In this document: positions 16,240-19,276 of the stretch, in pieces
Layout of the letters: each line of letters begins with the position of its first letter
Numbering within the stretch: position 1 is the stretch's first letter
Source of the DNA: Rhodanobacter soli
GTDB taxonomy: Bacteria > Pseudomonadota > Gammaproteobacteria > Xanthomonadales > Rhodanobacteraceae
Assembly (NCBI RefSeq): GCF_040548735.1
Contig: NZ_JBEPSD010000003.1
Location: forward strand, 496,001 to 560,000
Length of the DNA stretch: 64,000 bases
Reading direction: 5' to 3'
Made by a program: the position numbers and the translations under genes
The notes under the pieces: model-generated
What the model was told of the DNA's origin: nothing
Seen by the model: the letters and a program-made list of their open reading frames with translations, nothing else
The model's database searches: none

Positions 16240-16631
16240 TGGGCACCCTGGCCCTCATGCTTGCCGCCGCGCCGGCGGCCGTGCCGGAATTCAATGCCGC
16301 CGGCGAACTCGTGCGCGTGGTGCTGAGCCTGCTGGGCATCATCGGGCTGATCCTGGCGGCCGGCTGGCTCACCCGGCGGATGCAGCGCCGCCATGGCGTG
16401 GCCGGACGGCGCATCCGTTGCGTGGAGACGTTTGCGGTGGGCGCGCGCGAGCGACTGCTGCTGCTCGATGCCGATGGCAAGCGCCTGCTGATCGGCATGG
16501 GGCCGGGCGGCATGCGCACGCTGCACGTCTACGACGGCGCGCCGGCCGAACCTGTCGCGATCGAACAACCTGCCGCTCCGCCGCTGCCCGCGTTCGGCGA
16601 ACTGCTGGCACGCTGGAAGCGCAGCGCATGA
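16239..16631 (+). CDS. fliO: Flagellar export protein FliO
   Basis: 130 residues. FliO assists assembly of the FliP ring in the export gate. A short periplasmic N-terminus is followed by one transmembrane helix near 27-45 ([20 protein letters not shown]) and a cytoplasmic domain with the family pattern [26 protein letters not shown]. It starts in TGATG with fliN and overlaps fliP by 4 bp. Confidence 0.92.
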
Positions 16632-17377
16632 AGACGTGGCGCTGGATCGTCGCCGGGTCGCTGCTGCTGTTGCCGCTGGCGGCACTGGCGGCGCCGCCGC
16701 CGGGCATTCCGCTGGTCAACGTGCAGAACGTGCCCGGTGGCGGCCAGAGCTGGACGCTGTCGCTGCAGGTACTGGCGCTGATGACGGCGCTGACGCTGCT
16801 GCCGGCGATCGCGCTGATGATGACCTCGTTCACCCGCATCATCATCGTGCTCGGTTTCCTGCGCCAGGCGCTGGGCACGCAATCGACCCCGCCGAACCAG
16901 GTGCTGCTGGGGCTGGCGTTGTTCCTCACCCTGTTCGTGATGTCGCCGGTGCTCAACCGCGCCTACGCCGACGGTGTGAAGCCTTATATGGACGGCCAGC
17001 TCGCCGCCGAGCAGGCGCTGCCGGCGGCCTCGGCGCCGTTCAAGCAGTTCATGCTCGACCAGACGCGCGAGGCCGACCTGGCGCTGTTCACCCGGCTGGC
17101 CGGCGAAAAGCCCTACGCGGGCAAGGCCGACGTGCCGTTCAAGGTGGCGATGCCGGCGTTCCTCACCAGCGAGCTGAAGACCGCGTTCCAGATGGGCTTC
17201 CTGCTGTTCATCCCGTTCCTGATCATCGACCTGGTGGTGGCCAGCGTGTTGATGTCGATGGGCATGATGATGGTCTCGCCGATGATCATCTCGCTACCGT
17301 TCAAGATCATGCTGTTCGTGCTGGTGGACGGCTGGACGCTGCTGCTCGGCACGCTGGCGGGGAGTTTCTACACGTGA
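16628..17377 (+). CDS. fliP: Flagellar export gate protein FliP
   Basis: 249 residues. FliP forms the pentameric core of the type III export gate. It has a cleavable signal peptide ([21 protein letters not shown]), then helices with FliP signatures: [40 protein letters not shown] and [20 protein letters not shown]. The ATG at 16628 overlaps the fliO stop; the longer open frame upstream lies inside fliO. A 755-bp palindromic repeat separates it from fliQ, breaking the usual few-base spacing. Confidence 0.97.
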
Positions 17378-17421
17378 CCGCGCTCCGGCTGGCCGCCAGG
17401 GATTTTCGCTCCACCGCAGCT

Positions 17422-18176
17422 GTAGGAGCGCGCTTGCGCTCGATGCTCTTGCTTGGCCGGGGGCAGGGCCTTCAGAGCAAGAGCTTTCGTCTGCCTTCGG
17501 CAGCCGAGTTACTTTCTCTTTGCGTGGCCAAAGAGAAAGTAACCCAAGAGAAAGGCCACCCCGATGGCGCGCCCTGCGGGCATCCTGCCCTCCGGGTGCG
17601 CGGGTGGGCTACGGGGTTTTTCGACAGCACATCCTGTGCTGGCGAAAAACTGGCCGGCATCCTTGCCGGCCACCCTGCGGGCTTTCCTTCGCCCACCCGC
17701 CGCGCCATAGGGGCCCCGGGTAGAGCAGCGCGCTCCCGGCGCGCACTCTTCGAAGGAGCCGGATCAAGAGCAGAAGCGAAGTCAGAGCAAAGCACCGCTT
17801 TGCTGTGGCTTTCGCTCTTTGCTTTTCGGCTTTCCACCGAGTGCGGGCCAGGATGGCCCGCTGCTCTACCCGGGGTCCCTTGTGCGGCGGTGAGTCGGGG
17901 TCGACAGGCCGCGCAGCGGGAACCGACAGGGATGTCGGTTCCTTTTCGCACGGGCAGGATGCCCGTTCGAAAAGCCCGGCCCCGGCTCACGGACTTGCCG
18001 GGCAGGATGCCCGGCAAGCGCCAAGCGGGGTGTCGTTTTCTCTTGGTTACTTCTCTTTTGGACAAGCAAAAGAGAAGTAACTCGGCCTCCGCAGGAGGAC
18101 GAAAGCTCTTGCCCCTGAGGTTCTTCGCTTTAAATGCGGTAAGAGCAAGAGCATCGCGCATGGAGTGCGCTCCTAC
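17422..18176. repeat. 755-bp palindromic repeat element between fliP and fliQ
   Basis: The whole segment is an imperfect palindrome centred near 17795. The outer arms 17422-17454 and 18141-18176 are near-complementary (GTAGGAGCGC.. / ..GCGCTCCTAC), as are 17475-17522 with 18067-18114. CCCCGGGTAGAGCAGCG (17714-17730) is exactly complementary to 17859-17875. Each half also has a perfect 15-bp-stem hairpin (17508-17543 and 18046-18081). Seven further hairpins share a CA-TCC-TG type loop on the left (17578-17590, 17625-17641, 17651-17672) and its complement, GGA or GGGA, on the right (17844-17860, 17919-17942, 17950-17966, 17995-18017). No convincing gene lies inside. It looks like a non-coding intergenic repeat of the kind dispersed in Xanthomonadales genomes; mobility is inference. 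Confidence 0.9.
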
Positions 18177-18239
18177 GGGAACAGGAGGGGAGGCGCCCTT
18201 CGCCATTCCTTCGGTGAACCGCAACGAAGGTACGTTCGC

Positions 18240-18509
18240 ATGACCCCCGAGTCCATCATGGAGATCGGTCAGCACGCGCTGTACGTGGCGATGCTGGTGG
18301 CCGCGCCGCTGCTGCTGACCGCGTTGGCGGTGGGCCTGCTGGTGGGCGTGATCCAGGCGGCCACGCAGATCAACGAGATGACCCTCTCCTTCATCCCCAA
18401 GCTGATCGCGATGGCGCTGGTGGCGCTGATCGCCGGGCCGTGGATGCTGCGCCTGCTGGTGCAGTACACCACGCAGCTGATCGAAAGCCTGCCGGGCGCG
18501 GTCAGATGA
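18240..18509 (+). CDS. fliQ: Flagellar export gate protein FliQ
   Basis: 89 residues with two transmembrane helices. FliQ packs around the FliP-FliR gate. Sequence signatures: MTPESIMEIGQHALYVAMLV, GVIQAATQINEMTLSFIPKL. GAAGG lies about 9 nt before ATG 18240; the longer open frame upstream runs into the palindromic repeat and is rejected. It overlaps fliR by 4 bp. It must be transcribed either through the repeat or from a promoter in its right arm or the 63 bp after it. Confidence 0.96.
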   Translation: MTPESIMEIGQHALYVAMLVAAPLLLTALAVGLLVGVIQAATQINEMTLSFIPKLIAMALVALIAGPWMLRLLVQYTTQLIESLPGAVR

Positions 18510-19276
18510 CGGCGCTGGACCTGGCGCAGTTGCCGCTGTGGCTTGGCAGCCTGTTCTGGGCGATCGGCAGGGTGAGCGGGCTGTGCCTGGTGGCGCCGGT
18601 GTTCAGTGCGACGGTGGTTTCGGCGCGTATCCGCATCGGCGTGGTGGTGGTGCTGTCGCTGGTGCTGGCACCGCTGGCGCCGGTGACGATCGACCCGCTC
18701 AGCGGCGACGGCGTGGCGACGATGGCCGGGCAAGTGCTGATCGGCGCGGCGGTGGGGTTCGTGCTGAAGCTGGTGTTCGAGGCGGTGTCGTTCGGCGGCG
18801 AGCTGGTGGGGCAGAGCATGAGCCTGGGTTTTGCCGAGGTGGTCAATCCGCAGGCCGGCGGCAGTTCGAATGTGCTGAGCCAGTTCTACCTGCTGCTGGT
18901 GACCTTGCTGTTCCTCGCGATGGACGGCCATTTGCGCCTCATCGCGCTGCTTGCCGACAGCTTCCACAGCCTGCCGCCGGGTGTGCCGGCGATCAACGCC
19001 AACGGCCTGCACGCGGTGGTCGGCTTCGCGGCGGAGCTGTTTGCCGGCGCCGTGCGCGTTGCCTTGCCGGCGATGACCTCGCTGCTGGTGGTGAACATCG
19101 GCTTTGCCGCGATCAGCCGCGCGGCGCCATCGATGAACCTGTTTGCGGTGGGCTTCCCGATCACCGTGTCGCTGGGCTTCATCGCCTTGTGGCTGGCGCT
19201 GCGCAGCCTGCCGGGCGCCTTCGAGGCGTTGCAGGATGACGCCTGGTCGCTGATGCGCCAGTTGCTGGGGGGCTGA
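18506..19276 (+). CDS. fliR: Flagellar export gate protein FliR
   Basis: 256 residues with about six transmembrane helices. FliR completes the FliP5Q4R1 gate. Family features include the N-terminal WLGSLFWAIGRVSGLCLVAP, the middle GELVGQSMSLGFAEVVNPQA and the C-terminal LALRSLPGAFEALQDDAW. ATG 18506 lies in an ATGA overlap with fliQ. flhB follows after 5 bp. Confidence 0.96.
   Translation: MTALDLAQLPLWLGSLFWAIGRVSGLCLVAPVFSATVVSARIRIGVVVVLSLVLAPLAPVTIDPLSGDGVATMAGQVLIGAAVGFVLKLVFEAVSFGGELVGQSMSLGFAEVVNPQAGGSSNVLSQFYLLLVTLLFLAMDGHLRLIALLADSFHSLPPGVPAINANGLHAVVGFAAELFAGAVRVALPAMTSLLVVNIGFAAISRAAPSMNLFAVGFPITVSLGFIALWLALRSLPGAFEALQDDAWSLMRQLLGG

Follow-up and report, generated by a model that had tools for sequence, protein, structure and literature searches.

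In the window, i.e., the whole 64-kb stretch of Rhodanobacter soli DNA analyzed here, a 755-bp element (17422..18176, assigned to no strand) lies between fliP upstream (16628..17377, + strand; FliP PF00813, E 4.7e-82) and fliQ downstream (18240..18509, + strand; FliQ PF01313, E 1.6e-29), and it is composed of flanking REP-like ends, an inverted B half-unit, a core, and an A half-unit. An earlier note, made from the letters of the sequence, had described a near-palindrome at 17422-18176 between the two genes, with the right coordinates, and its inverted structure was borne out by both the arms and the folds. Inverted arms were found at 17477-17563/18026-18112 (87 nt, 75%), 17709-17733/17856-17880 (92%), 17438-17453/18144-18159 (94%), and 17422-17434/18164-18176 (92%), and the 17-bp pair 17714-17730/17859-17875 was identical in full. 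Against its own minus strand, the element gave a best match of 234 bits, while 81 further stretches of the window, each 755 bp long, gave at most 46.4 bits. Moreover, its RNA minimum free energy was -510.7 kcal/mol versus -334.8 for shuffles (sd 6.7; z -26, 0 of 20 shuffles as good), and its DNA fold reached z -20 (0 of 20 shuffles as good), in line with the suggestion of a highly structured molecule in that one strand is strongly structured, a function as RNA being the part that we infer. As the note had also stated, the element contained no credible gene: three ORF frames were scanned inside it without a Pfam match at E 0.01, and a protein-coding element was rejected on that basis. A search of 17000-18600 against Rfam 15 listed 15 matches, none at gathering score (RsmY, among the weak ones, scored 13.7 bits versus the 57 needed), and membership of a known RNA family was thus rejected for the element region.

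The two arms correspond to half-units of ~275 bp, namely A (17835..18112, + as the GGA strand; RNA fold at z -8.05, equaled by 0 of 200 shuffles) and B (17478..17748, - as the GGA strand), with a core at 17749..17834 between them (no strand; family median 82 bp). Outside the half-units, a REP-like end starting GTAGGAGCG at 17422..17444 is accessory and was not observed at most copies, and a second accessory end, starting GTAGGAGCG on the reverse complement, is located at 18150..18176. A half-unit profile run over the fetched loci gave 220 matches (192 near-full), with some copies fetched twice, and in this sample, in which the fetch favored long matches, 113 distinct copies comprised 74 inverted pairs, 35 copies with one half by the rule used, and 4 with none. 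The inverted pairs were typed as A+B in 61 cases, AA in 3, BB in 1, and unclear in 9. The 35 copies scored as single (28 A, 5 B, 2 unclear) also took in L135 and L138, in which a long core separates the two halves, and L117, L118, L124, L128, L130, and L139, which are truncated pairs but have their partner visible upstream, so that by eye at least 8 of them are truncated or split pairs and true singles are fewer than 35. Some single A units (e.g., L121, L226, L227) were seen by eye to begin with an extra hairpin with a GCA-type loop and swapped stems, which occupies the place of the core and the B half in full elements.

The identity of the halves, taken from the best local alignment as the number of identical positions divided by the shorter length, was 0.64 within one element (74 pairs) and 0.66 between A and B of different elements, compared with 0.86 for A-A and 0.83 for B-B in random pairs across elements. 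Since identity within elements was no higher than between them, the near-palindrome unites two paralogous modules in a fixed pairing and is not being homogenised, and homogenisation of the arms by gene conversion was rejected on the same figures. Consequently, the inversion in the "one large inverted structure" of the earlier note stands, and a single homogenised palindrome does not, the structure being two diverged inverted modules around a ~85-bp core. Extrusion of one long palindrome as a cruciform is likewise not supported as the key property, as the arms are paralogous half-units and it is the local hairpins and the pseudoknot-triplex that are conserved.

The genome and its relatives were searched as the note had proposed, and dispersed copies were found, identifying a dispersed, non-coding, non-autonomous repeat with copies across genomes and empty sites in relatives rather than a locus-specific leader. 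The genome itself held three near-full copies (the window copy, C1:987836, and C1:2018852), one large single half, and fragments. Within the genus, at least 44 of 45 genomes had matches at E 1e-10 or better, mostly away from fliP-fliQ among the matches listed, in which both strands of one copy were counted separately. This genus is probably Rhodanobacter: by FliP, the closest named relatives include Rhodanobacter, Frateuria, Dyella, and Luteibacter, and the Rhodanobacter MAG locus L020 shares its junction with genome G020 (L135) of the genus. At the level of the order, an A half-unit was present in 60 of 299 sampled genomes, of which 13 belonged to the same genus, 32 to other genera of the family, and 15 to other families. 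Among 30 genus loci fetched for the fliP-fliQ junction, 26 had a complete junction; the element was found in 17, only REP or hairpin remnants in 2, and nothing in 7. The outcome that the note had named as speaking against a dispersed element, one shared position in all relatives with no copy elsewhere, was thus not found, given 17 occupied junctions of 26 and matches in at least 44 of 45 genomes, most of those listed being at other places. Orientation at the 17 occupied junctions, judged by the best match and in some cases nearly even, was as in the window in 11 and reversed in 6. At the junctions of L023 (Dyella sedimenti) and in the 5' part of L136 (genome G040), BoxC/TM-like G/C-rich triplex repeats of the CCCTCTCCCC...GGGGAGAGGG type were seen by eye, and the fliP-fliQ spacer therefore holds triplex-type repeats of different families.

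Empty sites were searched for at the two other own-genome copies in 24 relatives, and presence and absence at orthologous sites, a hallmark of MITEs, were observed at both. At own-genome locus B, where the gap is 840 bp, both flanks lay on one contig in 12 other genomes, of which 5 were near-contiguous (18-40 bp beyond the joined flanks) and 7 retained 88-265 bp. At locus A, with a gap of ~900 bp, 1 of 11 other genomes having both flanks on one contig was occupied (G010, 811 bp) and 10 had 82-270 bp. In a search for target-site duplications at the two loci, the spacers were too diverged for any junction to be placed. At locus B of genome G010, just an outer hairpin is left, as would be expected after deletion of the inner palindrome.

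Such a remnant would suit a REP/BIME- or BoxC-like DNA repeat, whose single-stranded DNA structures would act in replication (transposase recognition, polymerase arrest, supercoiling, or instability), with any RNA being incidental. This explanation is also favored by the GTAG REP-like ends that flank the window copy, and we regard it as a possible, though not the probable, account of the element. It is weakened by the distribution of these ends, which are accessory to the repeat family: within 130 bp of the 74 full copies, GTAG[GA]AGC ends occurred on both sides in only 6, on one side in 22, and on neither in 46. Furthermore, Y1_Tnp (PF01797), present in 36 of the 45 genus genomes, was not found in this genome or in the 8 others, all of which had element matches. 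A RAYT-driven REPIN was rejected on both counts, i.e., no PF01797 found in the genome and no GTAG ends seen at most copies. That the PF01797 profile found no mobilising enzyme in this genome also counts against the explanation preferred below, in which copies would be spread in trans.

Each half-unit carries four hairpins on one strand, mostly with a constant loop CA(N)GGATG and changing, compensating stems. In A, on the + strand, these are H1 (17843..17861), H3 (17950..17966), and H4 (17994..18018), all with the loop CAGGATG, and H2 (ACAGGGATGT, 17919..17942), whose hexaloop is AGGGAU and which fits ACARGGAUGU, the core of the consensus obtained for CsrA by SELEX. In B, on the - strand, they include H3 (17625..17641, loop CAGGATG), H2 (17651..17672, loop CAAGGATG), and H4 (17573..17597, loop CAGGATG), the last recognized by eye with an imperfect outer stem. 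GGA (255), GGGA (110), and TGGA (85) were the most frequent hairpin loops in the 113 distinct copies and stood on many stems; CGA (78) came next. For the loops CAGGATG (267 cases) and CANGGATG (226 cases), the first three stem positions were 97-99% Watson-Crick, with 48 and 43 left/right combinations of 5-nt stems, respectively, a few of them mismatched. GNA triloop hairpins (GAA 71, GCA 68, GTA 18) showed similar stem swapping. In 60 loci, CA(N)GGAXG anchors formed hairpin loops in 270 of 329 cases inside elements versus 2 of 192 in the flanks, and 6 of the 7 CA(N)GGAXG hairpins of the 64-kb window fall in the element. Among 92 half-units, GGA was in the loop of H1 in 56 (36 having H1 without GGA), H2 in 91, H3 in 84, and H4 in 86; at least one C-ANGGAX-G hexaloop was present in 89, and H2 took that form in 76. 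In some GGA hairpins (the tips of L002, L004, L009, and L010, and L228 1924-2197), a nested insertion of ~30 nt of the GAGTTGAGGCAACGCAGGAGCAGTTGCC type was noticed, which forms a GGA-loop hairpin of its own and makes the tip branched.

These loops resemble known ligands of RsmA/CsrA, for which, according to the available text of PMC4005645, the best form is a hexaloop ANGGAX on a stem, bound with high affinity, and for which the available text of PMC7652899 gives the SELEX consensus RUACARGGAUGU. RNA-level binding of RsmA by the element is thus plausible from its sequence, and the fit of the loops to the consensus of an RNA-binding protein argues against a purely DNA-level repeat. Counting against the CsrA assignment, GGA is missing from H1 in the 36 half-units mentioned above, and many element stems exceed four pairs, whereas most SELEX ligands had stems of at most four pairs (PMC7652899, available text). 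The genome encodes one CsrA gene.

The fold was further examined with RNAalifold on 92 half-units (drawn from 151 dereplicated), which gave 69 pairs, 40 of them with kept two-sided changes. On the GGA strand, G.U exceeded A.C at pairs 10-26 (25 vs 1), 47-204 (21 vs 0), 67-153 (24 vs 0), and 226-258 (31 vs 0), the covariation and wobble counts alike being inflated by shared ancestry. This lean of the wobbles to one strand speaks for RNA and against a DNA repeat. By contrast, C.A exceeded U.G at two S2 pairs, 234-251 (8 vs 4) and 236-249 (9 vs 3), which counts against the preferred explanation; both fall within S2, in a stretch of variable tract length and uncertain alignment. When one S2 pair was counted separately, U.G was found in 67, U-A in 63, and C.A in 0 cases, with the left arm not found in 34 further cases.

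On the 3' side of H4, each half-unit continues in the order S1a, a pyrimidine tract (Y1), and the S2 hairpin (Y2-loop-R), with S1b in its loop. In A, on the + strand, S1a (TGTC, 18031..18034) pairs with S1b (GACA, 18061-18064), Y1 (TTTTCTCTT, 18036..18044) is the predicted Hoogsteen third strand, matching the purine strand 18068-18076 (AAAAGAGAA) in parallel at 9 of 9 positions, and S2 (18046..18081) is a 15-bp hairpin (18046-18060/18067-18081). The corresponding module of B (17508..17559, - strand) comprises S1a (17554-17559), Y1 (17545-17553), and S2 (17529-17543/17508-17522, - strand) with the loop 17523-17528. The three consecutive tracts of a triplex, judged at the sequence level, therefore give triads at 9/9 positions in A and 8/9 in B.

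The S1a-S1b helix was supported by several measures: 98.6% of cells were paired, compared with 84.8 ± 1.1 in shuffles and at most 49.7% in slid controls; two-sided changes occurred in 40 cells versus 10.6 shuffled; and the covariation score was 0.329 versus 0.078 ± 0.013. Two of the five measures did not exceed shuffles: 148 of 500 shuffles had at least as many changing S1 pairs (2), and 500 of 500 at least as many pair types (4). Over all fetched loci, 45 of 57 distinct S1a/loop combinations had at least 4 contiguous Watson-Crick pairs, compared with a shuffled mean of 14.8 and a maximum of 25 in 300.

For the third strand, 108 modules were kept and 107 scored, of which 25 were informative by a strict rule and 82 near-symmetric. 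Among the 25, Y1 was the mirror of Y2, and hence the parallel Hoogsteen partner of R, in 22, with 0 direct repeats and 3 ties, which led us to reject a direct-repeat switch hairpin in place of the triplex. The 82 near-symmetric modules divided into 31 mirror, 21 direct, and 30 neither, and a looser rule applied to 85 modules gave 47 mirror, 8 direct, and 30 equal. By type, AAGAGAAA and AAAGAAAA favored the mirror in 25 of 27 cases, and AAAGAAAG, which counts against the preferred explanation, leaned to the direct repeat (19 of 23 cases) by one base beside a symmetric core. When Y1 was shuffled, the mean P of an equal mirror match was 0.01-0.06 for the main types, 0.31 for AAGAAAAG, and up to 0.52 for rare types. 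Outside the genus, asymmetry came mainly from the type AAAGAAAA, with the mirror in 10 of 10. In L217, a T in the purine strand is faced by G in the third strand, and G in the third strand is a known pyrimidine-motif answer to such a T inversion.

As templated repair cannot make mirror repeats, selection on a three-stranded fold appears to be the simplest reading of the third strand. The same evidence bears on the idea that the copies are neutral debris of a once-mobile element, their hairpins being kept perfect by templated repair (quasi-palindrome correction) instead of selection. Template switching is able to generate compensating stem changes, and copies do decay and rearrange, down to an outer hairpin at one site. 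Nevertheless, the mirror-repeat third strand (22 of 25) is beyond templated copying, the two arms are not homogenised, and the loops stay near-constant while the stems vary, making neutral debris improbable. A structured composite repeat, i.e., an inverted pair of paralogous half-units with covarying hairpins, a pseudoknot, and a third strand, is well supported.

The triplex-pseudoknot module was also detected in named betaproteobacterial loci, where its S1 pairs and tracts differ. A class-wide pattern search found it in 10 of 369 sampled genomes (reversed control 0 among the matches listed) with a pattern strict enough to miss the window's own genome, and some of the S1 helices found were only 3 bp. 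In the betaproteobacterial flagellar loci L025-L070 (~8.7 kb each), such modules numbered up to two per locus; a GCCCCGCACAGGGGC-type hairpin follows many of them, which suggests a separate repeat family that is abundant in Burkholderiales. Rfam searches of 8 related loci returned only RF02421, outside the triplex modules; it is the Burkholderia sRNA Bp1_684, at L033 355-466 in Caballeronia grimmiae (44.6 bits, barely above the threshold of 44).

Whether RNA can form the triplex depends on its type: the available text of PMC4666352 states that RNA can form the pyrimidine type and cannot form the purine type, and that A-rich purine tracts favor the former. Here, the GGA strand would yield a pyrimidine-type triplex and the opposite strand a purine-type one, and the A-rich purine strand, in favoring a motif possible for RNA, is a further argument against the DNA repeat. 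On the other side, intrastrand DNA triplexes are known from BoxC/PIT repeats (PMC4666352, available text), and full elements avoid divergent promoters, with 25 in convergent, 32 in codirectional, and 4 in divergent contexts (n = 61), both of which favor it. In these contexts, 82 of 122 flanking genes had the 3' end facing the full element. Also, the two halves could pair in a full transcript, as in the fold described above, and so hide the loops, which counts against an RNA reading. Single-stranded DNA could also be the selected molecule instead of RNA.

For 20 half-units scored as single, 3 of them parts of split pairs, the 3' end of the triplex-side gene faced the element in 18, by crude gene calling (e.g., the right neighbor of L133 was scored on the wrong strand). 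The GGA strand is accordingly antisense to the triplex-side gene in 18 of 20, and a transcript running on from that gene would carry the non-GGA strand, which counts against the preferred explanation. The orientation of single units came out as the opposite of what a simple sense element in the 3'-UTR would show. Alternatively, single A units could be an independent small-RNA gene family, later duplicated as the inverted A+B pair. The four GGA hairpins do resemble those of CsrB/RsmZ, and in the codirectional case the core-side gene lies 170-390 bp from several single units, leaving room for a promoter. No conserved promoter was seen by eye upstream of single half-units, which also counts against the explanation preferred below, a T-run after the last hairpin is absent in the window copy, and 74 of the 113 fetched copies are inverted pairs, although the fetch favored long matches; on balance, a small-RNA gene origin seems very unlikely.

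Taken together, the explanation that we tentatively prefer, as the leading candidate and somewhat short of probable, is a non-autonomous composite repeat selected for its single-strand, probably RNA, structure, which would bind RsmA/CsrA and be capped by a triple helix. We infer that a single-strand fold is under selection and that RNA is the acting molecule. Read-through from flanking genes would produce a transcript tail in which the GGA-hairpin cluster, closed by the triple helix, may bind RsmA/CsrA locally or as a decoy, the triplex might guard the 3' side against exonucleases or help to end the transcript, and new copies could spread in trans by some enzyme or by recombination. A broader proposal, which we consider rather unlikely, is that the repeats form a genome-distributed RsmA/CsrA-binding RNA system of Rhodanobacteraceae and that the module is a widespread, uncatalogued proteobacterial motif. 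Mobile half-units would then append GGA-hairpin arrays, capped by the covarying triple-helix pseudoknot, to many transcripts, and the repeat population, rather than one CsrB/RsmZ gene, might buffer or localise the regulator.

To our knowledge, natural triple helices backed by sequence covariation are rare, and in this family, changes in the stem are matched across genera by changes in the pseudoknot clamp and in the third strand. Provided that the RNA is made, a mobile repeat would have spread an element that binds a regulator and ends in a triplex, and the family would be a candidate for the CsrB/RsmZ-type decoys of this lineage; in the available text of a Xanthomonas study (2020; PMC7694677), that genus has no CsrB/RsmZ homologue and uses a different decoy, RsmU. 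Should the family act as DNA, a new class of sequence would be added to the triplex repeats of the BoxC type. No paper describing this repeat family was found within a partial coverage of the literature, and a full-text search with motif strings returned only unrelated papers.

Among known systems, REP/BIME/REPIN repeats (GTAG class, RAYT) share with this family extragenic palindromes and the GTAGGAGC ends that flank the window copy. In contrast to their short GTAG-foot palindromes with a cognate Y1 transposase, the unit here is the 275-bp half-unit, and the element spans 755 bp and consists of two structured halves that are paralogous; its REP ends are not integral, and no Y1 transposase was found in its genome. 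Xanthomonas and Rhodanobacter are not named in the available text of the GTAG-repeat paper PMC3733652. Similar to the CsrB/RsmY/RsmZ decoy RNAs, the element presents multiple A(N)GGAX-loop hairpins, several of them exposing CA(N)GGAUG loops that fit the CsrA consensus, but it is a dispersed DNA repeat with no known promoter, a triplex-pseudoknot end, long stems, and no Rfam match at gathering score. Major-groove triplex pseudoknots occur in telomerase RNA and in the SAM-II and preQ1-II riboswitches, which share the H-type pseudoknot with the first pyrimidine loop in the deep groove of stem 2; here, instead, there are many dispersed proteobacterial copies with predicted C.G-C and U.A-U triples and no known ligand. 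The nearest known kind is BoxC/PIT, as BoxC/PIT/TM repeats (Holder 2015; PMC4666352, available text) are likewise dispersed and intergenic, with three consecutive tracts, a one-strand triplex, and sometimes inverted pairs. BoxC is G/C-rich with a Y-R-R order (class II, purine motif), whereas the GGA strand here is class IV, with T/C tracts over an A-rich purine strand that do not follow the BoxC consensus CCCTCNCCC-GGGNGAGGG-GGGNGAGGG; unlike BoxC, this family has a covarying pseudoknot clamp within a ~275-bp domain, and the strings pseudoknot, Xanthomon, and Burkholderia are absent from the available main text of PMC4666352. What distinguishes this family from both REP/BIME and BoxC/PIT is its covarying clamp on the pseudoknot, together with the T/C tracts and the loops that fit the CsrA consensus.
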